NCBI GenBank assembly: GCA_016936655.1
Contig: JAFGXL010000015.1
Location: forward strand, 1-64,000
Direction of reading: 5' to 3'
From: Nitrospirota bacterium
Lineage (GTDB): Bacteria > Nitrospirota > Thermodesulfovibrionia > Thermodesulfovibrionales > Dissulfurispiraceae
Length of the DNA stretch: 64,000 bases
Shown here: positions 49,513-57,661 of the stretch, one piece after another
Numbering within the stretch: position 1 is the first letter of the stretch
Layout of the letters: each line of letters begins with the position of its first letter
Notes under the pieces: model-generated
The model's database searches: none
Told to the model about the DNA's origin: nothing
The model's input: the letters and a program-made list of their open reading frames with translations, nothing else
Position numbers and translations under genes: made by a program

Positions 49513-50484
49513 TTAAAGATTAGGCCTTGGATAAAGCCCTGCTGCCTTAACGATCTCTTCTATTGCAGACTCCCACTCAATAGCCTGTATATGCACTCCC
49601 TTTATCCCGGGGATCTCAAGGGCCTGTTTCACAAGCTCTACTGTTATCTTGATGCCTTCCTGCTCCTGCAGCTCTTTTGCCCTCTTCTTGTCATCGCCTG
49701 CTGCCTCTTTTGCCTTTAACATCCTCTCTATCAAAGGCTTAGGAACAGTCACTCCAGCGACCGAAGAATCCATATACTTTAACATCATAGCACTTTTAGG
49801 CACAATAATACCCGCCAAAATTGCTGTGCGCTCATGCAGACCCAAATTGCGGGCCTTCTCCATCTGCTGTTTGAAAAGCTCCATGTCATAAATTCCCTGG
49901 GTCTGGATAAAATCAGCTCCGGCATCAACCTTTTTCTTGAGGTTGTAAGGCCTGAAGTCCATCGGCTCACCCATCGGCGTCCATGATGCTCCGATAAAAA
50001 ACTTGGGAGGCACCTCTATCTTATCGCCGCCCTGCTGCAAACCTTGATCCCTCATCTTTTGGAGTATGCCCACAAGCTGGCATGTGTCAACATCATAAAC
50101 ATTCTTTGCTCCCGGATGACCCTTCAACTTTCCTGCTGCGCCGAACTTCTGGTGGTCACCTGCTATGCAGAGGCAGTTTTTGAGTCCGAGCGCAGCAGCG
50201 CCCAGCAGGTCAGCCTGAATCGCTATCCTGTTTCTGTCGCGGCAGGTCATCTGCATTACAGGCTCGAGCCCTGCCTGCTGTGATATATAAGCAGCTGCAA
50301 TGCTCGATATGCGGACAACCGCTGTCTGACAGTCTGTTATGTTTGCAGCATCACAAAATCCTTTAAGCACCTTTGCCTTTTCTATGATCTCATGCGGATC
50401 AGCGCTCATCGGAGGCCCAAGCTCTGCGGTGACAGCCATCTGGCCGCTTGCGATAATCTTTTCGAGATTGCTGCCGCTCTTCAT
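49513..50484 (-). CDS. metF: Methylenetetrahydrofolate reductase, MetF subunit
   Basis: This 323-residue TIM-barrel flavoprotein reduces methylene-THF to methyl-THF. It has VTAELGPPMSADPHEII, ITDCQTAVVRISSIAAA, LCIAGDHQKFG, FIGASWTPMGE and DFIQTQGIYDMELF. It directly follows metV (the metV stop abuts the ATG) in an Hdr-Mvh cluster, so it is the MetF of an acetogen-type MetFV complex rather than a lone NADH enzyme. In Moorella the matching genes encode a MetFV-HdrABC-MvhD complex. Last C1 gene of the operon. Confidence 0.93.
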   Translation of the reverse strand: MKSGSNLEKIIASGQMAVTAELGPPMSADPHEIIEKAKVLKGFCDAANITDCQTAVVRISSIAAAYISQQAGLEPVMQMTCRDRNRIAIQADLLGAAALGLKNCLCIAGDHQKFGAAGKLKGHPGAKNVYDVDTCQLVGILQKMRDQGLQQGGDKIEVPPKFFIGASWTPMGEPMDFRPYNLKKKVDAGADFIQTQGIYDMELFKQQMEKARNLGLHERTAILAGIIVPKSAMMLKYMDSSVAGVTVPKPLIERMLKAKEAAGDDKKRAKELQEQEGIKITVELVKQALEIPGIKGVHIQAIEWESAIEEIVKAAGLYPRPNL

Positions 50485-51198
50485 CTAACATGCCTCCGTT
50501 TTATTTTCTGATTTTTCTTCCTTCTCTTCATACGCCCTTATATGCTCAAGCGAAATTCTGCGCGGTCCGCCATCGCGGGATGTTGACCAATCGCGCGGAG
50601 GCTGAATCTCAAAGAGTTTTTCCAGAGTGCCGAGCTTCTTCATGCGCTCGATGATAAGATACCAGGCGCAGTCTATCTGATCACTCACTTCACATTTACC
50701 GTTGCTGGTTCCGCCGCACGGGCCGTTCATCAATGATTTTGAGCATCTGGCTACAGGGCATATTCCACCTGTAAGATGCAGAATACAGCTGCCGCAGCCT
50801 GCACAGAGCTCAACAAAAAAACCCGGCTCTGGAACCGCTCCGTAAAATGATGTATTAAGGGCAGGATACACAGGGATATTGCCAATGCGTTCTGAAAGAA
50901 AGTTTACTCCAACTCCACAGGCTGTTGAGAGTATAAGATCATATGACCTCGCCTTTTCCATCATAGGTTCGAAAAATTCGGGTTCACAATGCCGTTCTAT
51001 TGCAGCATGATCTATCTGGATCTCCTTGCCTTCCTGTGAAGCTTTTATTTTTAGCATAGATGCTAATATCTCAGCCTCTTTGCTCCCACCGGCGTGGCAG
51101 ATCGCAACGCAGGTGTTACAGCCAAAAACCAGTACCTTTTTAAAATCTTTTATCATCTCCCATATCTCTTCAAATGGTTTCTGCTGAGCAACGATCAT
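50485..51198 (-). CDS. metV: Methylenetetrahydrofolate reductase accessory subunit MetV
   Basis: The 237-residue protein is rich in cysteine. An N-terminal part resembles CO-dehydrogenase-linked and MTHFR_C proteins (VFGCNTCVAICHAGG, STACGVGVNFLSER). A C-terminal zinc/Fe-S part has ELCAGCGSC, GGICPVARCSKSLMNGPCGG and CEVSDQIDCAWYLI. MetV partners MetF in acetogens and passes electrons into it. Its ATG overlaps the mvhD stop (ATGA) and its stop touches metF, so the three are translationally coupled. Confidence 0.92.
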   Translation of the reverse strand: MIVAQQKPFEEIWEMIKDFKKVLVFGCNTCVAICHAGGSKEAEILASMLKIKASQEGKEIQIDHAAIERHCEPEFFEPMMEKARSYDLILSTACGVGVNFLSERIGNIPVYPALNTSFYGAVPEPGFFVELCAGCGSCILHLTGGICPVARCSKSLMNGPCGGTSNGKCEVSDQIDCAWYLIIERMKKLGTLEKLFEIQPPRDWSTSRDGGPRRISLEHIRAYEEKEEKSENKTEAC

Positions 51199-51698
51199 TG
51201 TTCTTCACCCCTTGTATTCTTCTGAGCTTTAAGCGCTGTACAAACGGGCGACGGACCGAGCTTGCGTATGCGTTCTGTAAATTCATTGCATATCTCTGCC
51301 CAGCGCGGTCCCTCTGCTGAAGAGAGGTTGAACATCTCGACCCTTGCAGGATTAAGGCCTATCTCTTTCAACAATGTCTTTACGTGACCAACTCTTCTTG
51401 CTGCGAATTTATTACCTTCCAGGTAATGGCATTGTCCCTTTAGTCAGCCTGCGACAAATACGCCGTCAACACCTTTTTCAAAGGCGTGCAGTATATGAAT
51501 GTGGTCTAGCTTGCCTGTGCATGGCAGCCTTATTATCTTCACATTAGGAGAATAGGAGAGCCGCATTACTCCTGCAAGATCTGCTGCTGCAAACGCACAG
51601 TAGTGGCAGGCGAATGCGAGCACATTCGGCTCCCATCCCTGCGGAGTCTCTTGCGGCTTTTCGATTGCATGCTCAATAGCTTTTGGAGCATCAGACAT
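51195..51698 (-). CDS. mvhD: MvhD/FrhD-type hydrogenase iron-sulfur subunit, selenoprotein (UGA as Sec at residue 85)
   Basis: The gene reads as one 167-residue MvhD if the in-frame TGA at 51444-51446 is selenocysteine. Before it comes NVLAFACHYCAFAAADLAG, IIRLPCTGKLD and GVDGVFVAG; after it, LKGQCHYLEGNKFAARRVGH and AEICNEFTERI, both typical of MvhD. The UGA replaces the cysteine in the family motif G-C-x-x-G-x-C-H-Y. Downstream codons continue without a stop to a normal TGA that overlaps metV. A hairpin with GG in its loop starts about 16 bases after the UGA, at SECIS distance. Sec-containing MvhD/VhuD relatives are known in methanogens and some bacteria. MvhD carries a [2Fe-2S] cluster and passes electrons to HdrA. 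Confidence 0.92.
51411..51446 (-). promoter_or_regulatory. Bacterial SECIS element with its UGA codon
   Basis: On the minus strand the UGA (51444-51446) is followed by a hairpin ATTACCT-GGA-AGGTAAT (51411-51427). The stem is seven perfect pairs, and the apical GG is 24-25 bases after the UGA, inside the 16-37 base window of bacterial SECIS elements. It lies within the mvhD reading frame, as SelB-dependent elements do. Confidence 0.75.
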
Positions 51699-51723: not shown

Positions 51724-54700
51724 TTAGTTAAGAACTCCTGCCTCTGATTCAGCAGCAGCATCTATCATAGCCATTATCTGGTCATCCCTGAAGTTGTTCA
51801 CCTGAAATGCCTTTGCAGGGCAAATGCCTGCGCAGATGCCGCAGCCCATGCATTTGACCTCATTGTGCGATATCTTACCGTCTGCATCAATATATGGAGA
51901 GCCGAATGGACAGACTCTGAGGCAGCTTAGACACGACATGCAGAGCTCTCTTTTGTGTTTTGCGATAATGCCTGAGACAGCAAGTTTTTCATGGGAAAGG
52001 AGCACGCCTGCCCTGCCTGCTGCAGCCATAGCTTGGCTTATTGTCTCATCAATATTCTTTGGCGCATGGCCCAGACCCGCGACAAAAAGTCCTTCAGTCG
52101 GTATATCAACCGGGCGCAGCTTTACATGAGCCTCGAGGTAGTAGCCATCCATATTGCGGGTGACTTTATACATACTGCCAACCTGATCAGTTGATGGATG
52201 GGGCCTCAATCCTGTAGAGAGCACCACATGGTCTGCATCAATTGTGATCTCCTTGTTCAGCATAAAGTCCCATGTTGATACACTAACCCTGCTGCCGTCT
52301 TGATGAACATCCGGCTTGCGATCAACATCATAACGCACAAAAAGCACTCCAAGGTCACGCGCTTTTTTATAGTAGTCCTCACGCAGCCCGTATGTCCTGA
52401 TGTCACGGTAGAGTATCACCACATGCGCAGCAGGCTCTGTCTCTTTTATATTTATCGCATTTTTTATCGCATCTTGACAGCATACACGCGAGCAGTATTG
52501 ATTTGGCTCTTCTCTTGACCCGACGCACTGTATCATCACATATGTCTCGCCTGCCTTTGGTCTTTTACCGGATGCGAGCCTCTGCTCAAGCTGGCGCTGA
52601 GTTATAACATTGCTGTTCTGTCCGTACAAATACTCTTTTGGCTGGTAGTCCGTACCGCCTGTGGAAAGTATGATCGCGCCATGCTCCAGCTCTGTGCCGT
52701 CACTAAGCATTGTCTTGAAGTTGCCCACAAAGCCATCAGTACTCTTAACCTCAACGCCTGTATGAAGTGTTATGTTCGGATGTTTTTTAACAGCAGCAAT
52801 TCTCTCATCAAGAAATCTCTGCACATCAAGACCATCAAGTGTCTTATAAACATTCCTTAGAAGTCCGCCCGGCTCTTTCTCCTTCTCTACAAGATGAACC
52901 TTAAAGCCCTGATCAGCAAGTGAGAGGGCAGATGTCATACCTGCTATACCGCTGCCTATAATCAGGCATGCAGAAGTGACGCCTACAGATTCGCTCTTGA
53001 GCGGAATCTGTAGCCTCGATTTCGCTATGGACATCTTCACAATGCCTGAAGCCTTTTTTGTAGCAGCTTCATTCTGGTCTTTGTGGCACCATGCGCACTG
53101 TTCCCTTATATCAGCAAGGTCAAACATATATTTGTTCAGGCCTGCTTCGCGTATTGTGTCTTGAAAAAGCCCTTCATGCGTACGCGGGGTGCATGATGCG
53201 ACCAGCACGCGGTTAAGATTCTTCTCCTTAATCAACTGCTTTATCTTCTCCTGGCTGTCCTGACTGCATGAGTAGAGCAGGTTCTCTGCATGCGCCACAT
53301 TAGGCAGGTCCTTCACATCTTCAACAACCTTTTTCACATCAACAGTGCCTGCTATATTTGTGCCGCAGTGGCATACAAAAACGCCTATTCTCGGAGCCTC
53401 GCCTGATATGTCCTTCTCTTCAGGCAGCTCTTTTGTGATCGTCTCTGTCCATCGCGCATCTGAAAGCAAAGACATCGCCTGTCCTGCAACAGCGCTGCCC
53501 TGCATGACTGTCTCTGGTATATCCTTTGGCCCCTGGTAAATGCCTGTCACAAATACGCCGGGCTTTGATGTCTCAACAGGCGAAAAAGCTGAAGTGCGCG
53601 GAAAGAGATAGTCGTTTGTATCTATGCCGCATATATCCGCAAGCTGCTGCGCATCTTTGTGAGGCTGAAGCCCGACGGAAAGCACCACCATGTCAAATGT
53701 CTCATCAACGAGCGAGCCATCCTCCTGCGCATATCTGAGCAGAAGATTTCTTGTCTCTGGTTCCTCACGCACAGCAGAGACCATTGCTCTAATGTATTTC
53801 ACGCCATATTCATTCTTAGCCCGCTCAACATACTTGTCAAAATCCTTGCCATAGGCGCGCATCTCCATATAAAAAATCGTGGGCTCTATATGTTTGTCAT
53901 GTTCTTTGGCAATGATCGCCTGCTTTGTTGCGTACATGCAGCAGACTGATGAACACCACGGATTTGCATTGTGAGGATCGCGCGAACCAACGCACTGTAT
54001 CCAGGCTACCTTCACAGGATGTTTGTTGTCGCTCAGCCTCTGCACAACTCCCTGGTACGGCCCTGATGCTGACAGTATCCTCTCGAACTGGAGAGATGTA
54101 ACAACATTGGGCCACCTGCCGAATCCGAGTTCTCCGCGCACCTTTGGATCATATGTATCGAGTCCAGGAGAAAGAATAACAGCGCCGACATTCAGCTCTG
54201 TCAGCTTTTCTTTCTCCATAAAATGGTCTATGGCATTTGCCTGGCACTCTGAAACACATATCATGCATTCACAGCAGCCTGAACAGCTCATGCAGCGAGA
54301 TGCCTCTTTAAGCGCCTGCTCTTCTGTATACCCAAGAAAGACCTCTCTGAAGTTGCCTTTTCGTTCAGCAACAGGCAGCGCAGCCATTGATGGCCGCGCC
54401 TCTTTTTTCATACCTGCAATGTCCTTTATATACTTCTGGCGGTCTTTCAGTTTTGGACGGTCAGCGCGCATGTCCTGCTGACGCAGGTAGCGGTGAATCG
54501 ACTCTGCTGCGTCACGGCCTGATGCTATGGCTGTAATTATGTTTGTAGATCCCTGGACGCAATCGCCGCCGGCAAATACTGCTTCAATGTTTGTGGTGCA
54601 TGTTAGCAGGTCTGCCTTTACCCTGCTGTTGGGCATAAGCTGCAGACCCTGCGCGCCTTTTGCGAATGAAGCATCAACACCCATGCCGATCGCAAATATT

Positions 54701-56169
54701 ATTGTGTCTGCCTCAAAGAAGTTGAGGCTGCATTCGTCATACTGCGGATTAAAGCGCCTGTTTTCGTCAAACACAGATACGCACTGTTTAACCTCTATGC
54801 CCTTTATCTTTCCGCCATCAGCAATGATCTTGTTCATGCCCCATGAATTCTCTATCTTTATGCCCTCTTCGAGCACCTGATCTATTTCCCATTTATGCGC
54901 AGGCATCTCATCGCACTTTTCGAGGCATACCATTCTTATCTCTTCAGCTCCGAGCCTGCTGGCTGTAAGCGCAACGTCAACAGCAACATTGCCACCGCCA
55001 AGCACAACCACTTTTTTGCCCACTCCAACTTTCTGCCCCAGATTCACCCTGCGCAGAAAGTCGAGGCTGTCGATTGAGCCCTCAGTATTCTCCTGTCCCT
55101 CGAATCTGAGCATCACTCCCTTATGAGTGCCAACCGCTATAAAAACAGCCTTATACCCCTGAGCTTTCAGATCATCAATGCTAAAATCCCTGCCGAGTGC
55201 AAGGCCTGTTTTCAGTTCAATATCATGGCTCAGTATGGCATCTATCTCTTTCTGCACAACATCCTTGGGCAGACGGTAGGCTGGTATTGATAGGGTTAGC
55301 ATTCCCCCTGCAACAGCCTCTTTCTCGAACACAGTAACTATGTAGCCCTTGAGTGCGAGATCCCTTGAGCAGGTCATTCCAGCAGACCCGCTCCCTATTA
55401 CAGCAACCTTTTCGAGCTTCTGTTCAGGAAGATCCGGTTTTTTAAATCCTCCATGCGCGTCTTCATAATCCGTAAGGAAACGCTTTAACGAGCATATTGA
55501 GACAGGCTCATCAAGGTCTCCTCTTCTGCATGCTGTTTCGCACGGATGGTTGCATACCCTGCCTGTGGCAGCCGGGAAAGGATTATTCTTTCTCACTATC
55601 TCGAGCGCTTCGCTGTATCTTCCTGCTGCTGTAAGCACAACATACGCATGAGCATTAACCTCAGCAGGACATGCTGTGCGGCAGGGAGATATCTCTTCCT
55701 TGTCTATAGCCACTCCGCCAGGCACAGCCTGGGCATATCGCCTGTTTATTGCTGTGCGTTGAGCAAGACCCTGATTAAATTCGCTCGGCTTCTGCACAGG
55801 ACACTTCTGCACACAGGCTTCGCAGCCTGTGCATTTGGAGAGATCAACATATCGCGCCTTTTCTCTAACAACAGCCCTGAAATTGCCTGCTTCACCTTCG
55901 AGCTTCACAAGCTCTGAGCATGAGTGGACATCAATGTTAAGATGCCTGCCGACATCCACCATCTTTGGCGAGATCATGCACATGGCGCAGTCGCCTGTTG
56001 GGAATGTCTTGTCGAGCATGGACATTATGCCGCCGATGGATGACTCTTTCTGGATTATATGCACCTTGAATCCTGAATCAGCAAGATCGAGGCTCGTCTG
56101 CATGCCGCCTATGCCGCCGCCTACAACAAGCACTGAACCGCGTTTTGTTGAATCTGACAAAAGACTCAT
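51724..56169 (-). CDS. hdrA: Giant HdrA: two HdrA modules with a nested GltD/NfnB-like module
   Basis: The 1481-residue flavo-iron-sulfur protein is far longer than HdrA of about 650. Residues 1-155 start an HdrA FAD domain (VVGGGIGGMQTSLDLADSG; TGDCAMCMISPKMVDVGRHL; ferredoxin CTGCEACVQKCP). At about 158-600 a glutamate-synthase-small-subunit-like module is inserted, with CRTACP, CNHPCETACRRG, FAD motif GSGSAG and a second nucleotide motif GGGNVAVD. The first HdrA resumes at about 605-905. From about 926 a second HdrA begins with VFVCHCGTNIAGTVDVKKVV, CTPRTHEGLF, IGSGIAGMTSALSLADQG and ends with two 4Fe-4S motifs (CMSCLSCLRVCP, CMGCGICAGICP). The insert suggests NAD(P)H as electron donor, perhaps by flavin-based bifurcation. 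It overlaps hdrB (ATGA) and precedes mvhD by 25 bases. Confidence 0.9.
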   Translation of the reverse strand: MSLLSDSTKRGSVLVVGGGIGGMQTSLDLADSGFKVHIIQKESSIGGIMSMLDKTFPTGDCAMCMISPKMVDVGRHLNIDVHSCSELVKLEGEAGNFRAVVREKARYVDLSKCTGCEACVQKCPVQKPSEFNQGLAQRTAINRRYAQAVPGGVAIDKEEISPCRTACPAEVNAHAYVVLTAAGRYSEALEIVRKNNPFPAATGRVCNHPCETACRRGDLDEPVSICSLKRFLTDYEDAHGGFKKPDLPEQKLEKVAVIGSGSAGMTCSRDLALKGYIVTVFEKEAVAGGMLTLSIPAYRLPKDVVQKEIDAILSHDIELKTGLALGRDFSIDDLKAQGYKAVFIAVGTHKGVMLRFEGQENTEGSIDSLDFLRRVNLGQKVGVGKKVVVLGGGNVAVDVALTASRLGAEEIRMVCLEKCDEMPAHKWEIDQVLEEGIKIENSWGMNKIIADGGKIKGIEVKQCVSVFDENRRFNPQYDECSLNFFEADTIIFAIGMGVDASFAKGAQGLQLMPNSRVKADLLTCTTNIEAVFAGGDCVQGSTNIITAIASGRDAAESIHRYLRQQDMRADRPKLKDRQKYIKDIAGMKKEARPSMAALPVAERKGNFREVFLGYTEEQALKEASRCMSCSGCCECMICVSECQANAIDHFMEKEKLTELNVGAVILSPGLDTYDPKVRGELGFGRWPNVVTSLQFERILSASGPYQGVVQRLSDNKHPVKVAWIQCVGSRDPHNANPWCSSVCCMYATKQAIIAKEHDKHIEPTIFYMEMRAYGKDFDKYVERAKNEYGVKYIRAMVSAVREEPETRNLLLRYAQEDGSLVDETFDMVVLSVGLQPHKDAQQLADICGIDTNDYLFPRTSAFSPVETSKPGVFVTGIYQGPKDIPETVMQGSAVAGQAMSLLSDARWTETITKELPEEKDISGEAPRIGVFVCHCGTNIAGTVDVKKVVEDVKDLPNVAHAENLLYSCSQDSQEKIKQLIKEKNLNRVLVASCTPRTHEGLFQDTIREAGLNKYMFDLADIREQCAWCHKDQNEAATKKASGIVKMSIAKSRLQIPLKSESVGVTSACLIIGSGIAGMTSALSLADQGFKVHLVEKEKEPGGLLRNVYKTLDGLDVQRFLDERIAAVKKHPNITLHTGVEVKSTDGFVGNFKTMLSDGTELEHGAIILSTGGTDYQPKEYLYGQNSNVITQRQLEQRLASGKRPKAGETYVMIQCVGSREEPNQYCSRVCCQDAIKNAINIKETEPAAHVVILYRDIRTYGLREDYYKKARDLGVLFVRYDVDRKPDVHQDGSRVSVSTWDFMLNKEITIDADHVVLSTGLRPHPSTDQVGSMYKVTRNMDGYYLEAHVKLRPVDIPTEGLFVAGLGHAPKNIDETISQAMAAAGRAGVLLSHEKLAVSGIIAKHKRELCMSCLSCLRVCPFGSPYIDADGKISHNEVKCMGCGICAGICPAKAFQVNNFRDDQIMAMIDAAAESEAGVLN

Positions 56170-57044
56170 ACCAGCCCCTTTTCCTTTAGCAGACTTATAG
56201 CATCAACAAAATGTCTGTCTATCTGCATTTCATAGGGATCAAAGCCCATGGACATTCCTATAAGTTCGGTTATGAAATATACCGGCAGCGATTTTTTGAT
56301 TCCATGCTTCTGCATTACTCTGACCTGGTGCGCGTCAAGATTCATCTGACAGAGCGGACAGGTTGTAACAATGCAGTCTGCACCGCGGCTGACAGCATCT
56401 TTGAGTATGTATGACATAAGCAGCAGCGACTGGTCTGTGTCATTTACAGAAGCAGAAGCGCCGCAGCAGTCTGTCTTGTATCCCCAGTCGAGCGGCTCTG
56501 CGCCAAGCTCTTCGCATATCTTCTCCATGGACTGAGGATTCTCAATATTATCATCAACGCTTATATCGCACGGAAAGCGTGTGAGCAGACAGCCGTAGTA
56601 ACAGGCGACTTTAAGACCAGCAAGTTTTTTATTCAACTTTGCAGCGAGTTCGCCTGAAAGAAGTTTCGGCATCAGCAGATCGAGTATGCTCGATACTTTT
56701 ATCTTCGCCTCTACCTTGCGACTTAATTCAGCATTTATTTTATGCTTCAACTCGCTGTCGCATAACAGCCTCTTTTGAGAAACGAGTGTTCTGCTGTAGC
56801 ATGATGAGCAGGGTATAACAATTTCTGAAAGTCCGGTTGCATCAGCTATGCCGAGGTTTCTTGCAGGAAGCGCGATGGCGAGAAAGTCATCTGTCTTTGC
56901 TGCTGCTGTTGCGCCGCAGCAGTTCCAGTCATCAATCTCCTTAAGCTCTATGCCGAGGTTAGAAAATACCATCCTGCACTGCAGATCGTACAGTTCAGAT
57001 GATGAGTGGAGCGAACAGCCAGGATAGTAGGCGACCTCTTTCAT
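56166..57044 (-). CDS. hdrB: Heterodisulfide reductase subunit B-like protein
   Basis: The 292-residue protein has two CCG domains. The first reads YYPGCSLHSSS, DDWNCCGATAA and PCSSCYSR; the second ACYYGCLLTR, KTDCCGASASV and TCPLCQMNLD. In methanogen HdrB these bind two non-cubane [4Fe-4S] clusters where CoM-S-S-CoB is split. In bacteria with no such disulfide, HdrB is thought to pass electrons to another acceptor, here probably MetVF. It overlaps hdrC and hdrA by four bases each. Confidence 0.93.
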   Translation of the reverse strand: MKEVAYYPGCSLHSSSELYDLQCRMVFSNLGIELKEIDDWNCCGATAAAKTDDFLAIALPARNLGIADATGLSEIVIPCSSCYSRTLVSQKRLLCDSELKHKINAELSRKVEAKIKVSSILDLLMPKLLSGELAAKLNKKLAGLKVACYYGCLLTRFPCDISVDDNIENPQSMEKICEELGAEPLDWGYKTDCCGASASVNDTDQSLLLMSYILKDAVSRGADCIVTTCPLCQMNLDAHQVRVMQKHGIKKSLPVYFITELIGMSMGFDPYEMQIDRHFVDAISLLKEKGLV

Positions 57045-57661
57045 TTCCTGTCCTCCTTTTTGGAGGCATCCGCTTTTTTGTAGAGCGCCTTAATCTCAGA
57101 GATATTTTTGACCCTCTCGATGCCAATATGAAGCCTTTTTTTGCTGATCATCGCGAGCCCGAGATCAGACTGGGTCTTTACTTCATTTATTATGGATTTG
57201 ATATCGCCTTTTTTCAGATCCTTGAGCATCGTCTTTGTCTCGTAGATACCCATGCCCTCAAGCTCATTGAATCTGCCGAGATGTCCTGCAGACTGCATGA
57301 ATGCTGCATTAAAATCAGCAGTGCGCTCAACAAGCGGCGTTATGCCAGCCTCTTTTGCCATCTGCTTTAGTGTCTCTGTTATGCGGGCTGTCTGTATATT
57401 GTTTGGGCAGCGTGCGCCGCAGGTGTAGCAGGCAACGCACTTCCAGACCAGAAGATTGTTCAGCGCCTCTTCTGTCTCGCCCATTGTTATTAACCTTATA
57501 AGACGGTCAGGGGTCACCATTGTCTGCATACCGACCGGACAGCCTGCTGCACAGCGGCGGCACTGATAGCAGGCATAGATATTCTGGCCTGACCTTTCGG
57601 CAACCTCATTCATGAACTGGACAGATTTTGGCATATCGCACTGCAGCTTTTTAACCGGCAT
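57041..57661 (-). CDS. hdrC: Heterodisulfide reductase subunit C-like protein
   Basis: The 206-residue protein has two 4Fe-4S motifs, ACYQCRRCAAGCPVG and KCVACYTCGARCPNN, in the HdrC helical fold. It relays electrons between HdrA and HdrB. It is the first gene of the hdrCBA-mvhD-metVF set, with a weak ribosome-binding site and a 148-base spacer to folD, which may hold an internal promoter. Confidence 0.92.
   Translation of the reverse strand: MPVKKLQCDMPKSVQFMNEVAERSGQNIYACYQCRRCAAGCPVGMQTMVTPDRLIRLITMGETEEALNNLLVWKCVACYTCGARCPNNIQTARITETLKQMAKEAGITPLVERTADFNAAFMQSAGHLGRFNELEGMGIYETKTMLKDLKKGDIKSIINEVKTQSDLGLAMISKKRLHIGIERVKNISEIKALYKKADASKKEDRK

Follow-up and report, generated by a model that had tools for sequence, protein, structure and literature searches.

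The window analysed here is a 64,000-nucleotide stretch of a Nitrospirota genome that carries, on its minus strand, six genes in the order hdrC-hdrB-hdrA-mvhD-metV-metF (Table 1). The same six are shared with the HdrCBA-MvhD-MetVF methylene-tetrahydrofolate reductase (MTHFR) of Moorella and Sporomusa (PMC9430772, PMC5736913). The N-terminal, HdrA-like half of the window's HdrA is broken by a GltD/NfnB-like NAD(P)/FAD domain, after which comes a second HdrA unit; at 1481 aa the protein is in the same size class as Moorella thermoacetica HdrA, which has 1487 aa and an inserted NAD(P)/FAD domain (PMC9430772). With its long HdrA, the cluster is a Moorella-type Hdr-linked methylene-tetrahydrofolate reductase cluster. 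An enzyme of this type would reduce methylene-THF in an NADH-linked and possibly bifurcating reaction.

Table 1. Genes and features of the hdr-mvhD-met cluster in the window
Feature	Position	Strand	Properties and basis
metF, methylenetetrahydrofolate reductase	49513..50484	-	PF02219, 126.5 bits
metV	50485..51198	-	PF12225, 121 bits; overlaps mvhD stop
mvhD	51195..51698	-	167 aa with one predicted Sec; Hdr-associated [2Fe-2S] protein; PF02662 match, read-through translation and AF2 model
Predicted Sec codon (in-frame TGA, codon 85 of mvhD)	51444..51446	-	TGA at the aligned codon of relatives; X at the aligned residue of PDB 9sfi_K
Predicted bacterial SECIS hairpin	51411..51427	-	7-bp stem, GGA loop; conserved among Sec genes, lacking in Cys genes
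hdrA	51724..56169	-	1481 aa, long form; GltD/NfnB-like insert at about aa 160-565
hdrB	56166..57044	-	PF02754, 80.7 bits; CoB_CoM_SS_B, 159 bits, below its cut-off
hdrC	57041..57661	-	4Fe-4S dicluster domains; CoB_CoM_SS_C, 62 bits, below its cut-off

An interrupted mvhD frame

The coordinates given for mvhD in a preliminary description of this DNA hold, and we add the strand, which had been left out: the gene starts with an ATG at 51698 and runs along the minus strand. That description had also reported a single TGA in the frame, at codon 85 and at a motif cysteine, followed by good MvhD sequence up to a stop overlapping metV. Read-through translation, alignment with relatives and the coordinates bear out all of this. 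Codon 85 is the only internal TGA (51446-51444), 82 sense codons follow it, and the terminal TGA (51197-51195) overlaps the metV ATG at 51198 within the sequence ATGA. The motif around the interrupted codon reads G84-U85-L-K-G-Q-C90-H-Y, and upstream of it the protein has C31-x-x-C34, with the predicted selenocysteine at 85 and not at 34.

The read-through protein matches PF02662 over residues 26-148 with 166.1 bits (curated cut-off 22.3). It scores 142.9 bits against the NCBIfam VhuD model NF045873, below the required 215 bits, and is a homologue of VhuD rather than the methanogen VhuD itself. An AF2 model of the read-through protein forms one compact domain (pLDDT 87) that superimposes on the solved chains 7bkb_F, 5odh_D, 5odc_D and 8rvu_F with TM scores of 0.91-0.94, normalised to the target. 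A default ORF listing returns only an 84-aa stump of mvhD, just as had been foreseen for automatic callers. This gene is the sole PF02662 match in the window's own genome, leaving no second MvhD as a back-up. Of the candidate read-through TGAs listed when all six frames of the window were scanned, only this one both falls within a recognised family's frame and comes with a stem of at least 7 pairs.

Conservation of codon 85 and its hairpin

A search of one genome per species across 84,980 species returned 110 relatives. Among the best 80 of these 110, which come from Nitrospirota and Desulfobacterota, codon 85 is TGA in all 80, and cysteine is retained at positions 31, 34, 60 and 90. Cultured relatives carry this gene as well, for example Desulfofustis glycolicus DSM 9705 (L136) and Desulfoprunum benzoelyticum DSM 28570 (L125). 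Only one search pattern spanned codon 85; it was built with cysteine there, and no pattern could require TGA, so the search method does not select for TGA. In the alignment, codon 85 is TGA in 88/88 Sec rows and cysteine in 30/30 Cys-type rows. Searching 246 genomes from the phylum separately with PF02662 yielded 16 copies containing TGA. An apparent second in-frame TGA in two of the relatives (L064 and L103) proved to be the terminal stop. Directly upstream of mvhD lies hdrA, and directly downstream metV, in 84 of the 88 Sec loci, a set picked by similarity to the window's mvhD whose neighbourhood counts describe a clade and not the whole family.

A Nitrospiraceae MAG of the same genus (L069) has the same TGA at the same codon. 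The preliminary description had asked whether related strains show a frameshift or a codon replacement at this point, and here the answer is a codon replacement with no frameshift. Between the two genes dN/dS is 0.084 before the UGA and 0.197 after it; the latter value indicates that the second half of mvhD is under purifying selection.

The seven-pair hairpin with GG in its loop that had been described downstream of the UGA is indeed present at 51427-51411, with the stem ATTACCT/AGGTAAT and the loop GGA. The stem begins 16 nt past the UGA, and the loop lies 23 nt past it. The published rules for bSECIS elements call for a stem of 4-16 bp, a loop of 3-9 nt, a G in the first two loop positions and a distance of 16-37 nt from the UGA (PMC13188914), and the stem (7 bp), loop (GGA) and spacing (23 nt) of the mvhD hairpin all fall within them. 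The published model further asks for an MFE of -7.5 kcal/mol or lower (PMC13188914). By this measure the window's hairpin is borderline: it has an MFE of -6.3 kcal/mol in stretches of 40-54 nt, -8.4 in 60 nt and -8.8 from -3 to +45, reaching the threshold only in the longer stretches (60 nt and -3 to +45); at 48 nt, 77/88 Sec genes pass. Taken alone as evidence, the window's hairpin is not significant, since a 7-pair stem with suitable loop and spacing also arises in 8% of recodings that keep the peptide and draw synonymous codons at random.

As an observation on a single sequence, then, the hairpin is weak, and it is convincing only through its conservation. For every stem pair, 84 to 88 of the 88 Sec genes preserve the pairing. 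In the Cys genes (n=30), one stem pair never forms, others are often broken and RNAalifold finds no structure. Synonymous choice in the Sec genes is frozen inside the hairpin only (His CAT in 88/88, Leu CTG in 86/88, Asn AAT in 87/88), and neighbouring codons vary. Codon 92 and the codon of Gly95 covary across the 88 Sec genes, TAC occurring with GGT (36 genes) and TTC with GGA (52 genes) and the two never mixed, which amounts to a compensatory A-T/T-A switch of one stem pair. On the tree one change suffices to explain this switch, and covariation counted over 88 sequences reduces to a single event. Similar hairpins occur in more distant Sec85 paralogues (L049, L055, L183-L185).

Decoding of UGA-85

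The window's own genome (2.0 Mb in 42 contigs, 97% complete) was searched for the selenocysteine machinery, whose absence the preliminary description had taken as evidence against a selenoprotein. All four genes are there: selA (613 bits), selB (363 bits), selD (329 bits) and the tRNA-Sec gene selC (69.7 bits), which ARAGORN calls as SeC with a TCA anticodon. The selD gene (L020, G000:C18:12193-13125) is itself Sec-encoded, a TGA occupying the position already known for Sec (VKAAGUAGK), and like mvhD it would be cut short by a default caller. In the same-genus genome (95% complete, 150 contigs), no selB scored over the cut-off, although tRNA-Sec and the Sec-MvhD are present; this is likely an assembly gap. 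Co-occurrence with selB was considered as a test for Sec-MvhD and set aside: selB is over the cut-off in 15 of the 16 Sec-MvhD genomes (the window's included), but 39 of the 45 remaining genomes have it too, which leaves the test without discriminating power in Nitrospirota.

With these results, mvhD is almost certainly a selenoprotein gene, in which SelB, acting with Sec-tRNA-Sec and with the hairpin that follows at 23 nt, would decode UGA-85 as selenocysteine to give the 167-residue MvhD of a Moorella-type MTHFR. A pseudogene or a sequencing error, with a single nonsense change truncating MvhD to 84 residues, is one competing account, given that TGC or TGT becomes TGA by one base and that a default ORF caller does give a stump. 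Yet the same TGA recurs in independent assemblies from many species and two phyla, the codons past it are under purifying selection and the hairpin is conserved; we regard this account as already refuted by the relatives and give it practically no chance. The UGA might instead be read as cysteine or tryptophan without selenium, by a changed code or by unspecific read-through, residue 85 being deduced here from DNA. Against such a reading, TGA also serves as the terminal stop of mvhD, the genome has the full sel set with tRNA-Sec included, the hairpin accompanies Sec codons and not Cys codons, and selD of the same genome has a TGA of its own at a known Sec site, leaving a negligible probability.

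A further idea adds to selenocysteine insertion rather than replacing it, namely that the UGA is also a selenium-sensing switch, low selenium yielding the stump and less of the translationally coupled metVF. The overlap of the mvhD stop with the metV start suggests translational coupling, and in the window's own genome no back-up MvhD exists. However, selenocysteine insertion alone accounts for the sequence constraints, and in many Sec loci a gap, and no overlap, separates metV from the point where the mvhD match stops. We consider such a switch improbable.

Selenocysteine sites in the family and their likely role

Selenoprotein MvhD/FrhD has been known in kind since 2006, when a catalogue of bacterial selenoproteins included FrhD as a family of 19 members, with Moorella thermoacetica among its hosts (PMC1794560). 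Four Sec MvhDs were reported in 2009 from Desulfobacterium autotrophicum HRM2 (PMC2702500), and a 2026 catalogue assigns PF02662 the motif CxxU and gives its Sec count as two (PMC13188914). These FrhD/MvhD/VhuD selenoproteins resemble the window's gene in fold and family, in having a UGA at a conserved cysteine, in usually adjoining hdrA and in occurring in anaerobes with sel genes (PMC1794560, PMC2702500, PMC13188914). The CxxU motif corresponds to position 34, whereas the window's gene has cysteine at 34 and the predicted selenocysteine at 85; CxxU is a property of the catalogue's example (PMC13188914) and not of every MvhD/FrhD selenoprotein. The text of the Sporomusa MTHFR paper makes no mention of selenium, and in literature outside subscription journals we found no paper describing selenocysteine in a Nitrospirota MvhD. 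What is new here is that Sec85 is nearly fixed in MetVF operons of the Moorella type in two phyla, and that the bacterial family has two alternative Sec sites, 34 or 85.

Desulfobacterota paralogues have Sec at 34 or at 85, never at both. The codon-34 form, a C-x-x-U with TGA at 34 and not at 85, was seen at six loci (L201, L202, L204, L205, L206 and L207). None of the sampled bacterial proteins has Sec at both sites, in contrast to the solved delta subunit PDB 9sfi_K, in which an X, presumably standing for Sec, aligns with each of 34 and 85. The X at 85 likens 9sfi to the window's protein; the second X at 34 sets it apart, as does its naming as a hydrogenase subunit rather than a member of a MetVF cluster. 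On a tree of 152 domains, well-supported branches force at least four changes of the Sec85 label.

Several Nitrospirota loci (L156, L157, L159, L162, L166, L167, L172 and L174) carry an HdrA-MvhD fusion directly upstream of metV. These are metV-linked like the window's mvhD and differ from it in the fusion to HdrA, in having cysteine at 85 and in having no cysteine aligned at 34. The notion that MetV-linked MvhD always contains Sec is ruled out by these Cys-type fusions, and it is also contradicted by stand-alone Desulfobacterota MvhDs near a MetV-like gene that have Cys or Sec34.

In solved complexes the [2Fe-2S] cluster of MvhD hands electrons to the bifurcating HdrA flavin (PMC6019823, PMC12350162). 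Among HdrA-fused MvhD domains, position 34 is mostly not cysteine and positions 31, 60, 85 and 90 remain cysteine, on which basis residue 85 is a probable ligand of the cluster. As the small [2Fe-2S] electron-transfer subunit of the HdrCBA-MvhD-MetVF reductase, the window's MvhD would likely relay electrons from HdrA through a cluster ligated by, or lying beside, Sec85, and Sec85 may tune how electrons pass between HdrA and its partner. It may also alter the potential of the cluster, as the preliminary description had suggested. A more specific proposal is that the selenolate of Sec85 directly ligates the [2Fe-2S] cluster, which exchanges single electrons with the HdrA flavin, that Sec85 is functionally required in the HdrCBA-MvhD-MetVF complexes of Nitrospirota and Desulfobacterota, and that sites 34 and 85 are interchangeable around the same cluster. 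The requirement is suggested by the lack of any reversion to cysteine in that clade. We put this proposal forward tentatively, as a possibility that falls somewhat short of probable.

Our findings correct a systematic annotation loss, in that default callers halve MvhD in many Nitrospirota and Desulfobacterota genomes. They also link an electron-transfer subunit in the methyl branch of the Wood-Ljungdahl pathway to the supply of selenium in these mostly uncultured lineages. Stand-alone Sec85 proteins, Sec34 paralogues and Cys-type HdrA fusions together form a natural series on the role of selenium at an iron-sulfur relay. Stand-alone Cys85 MvhDs with a MetV-like gene nearby occur at five Desulfobacterota loci (L186, L190, L191, L192 and L193), and the genomes concerned also hold a Sec85 form, making up natural Cys/Sec pairs.
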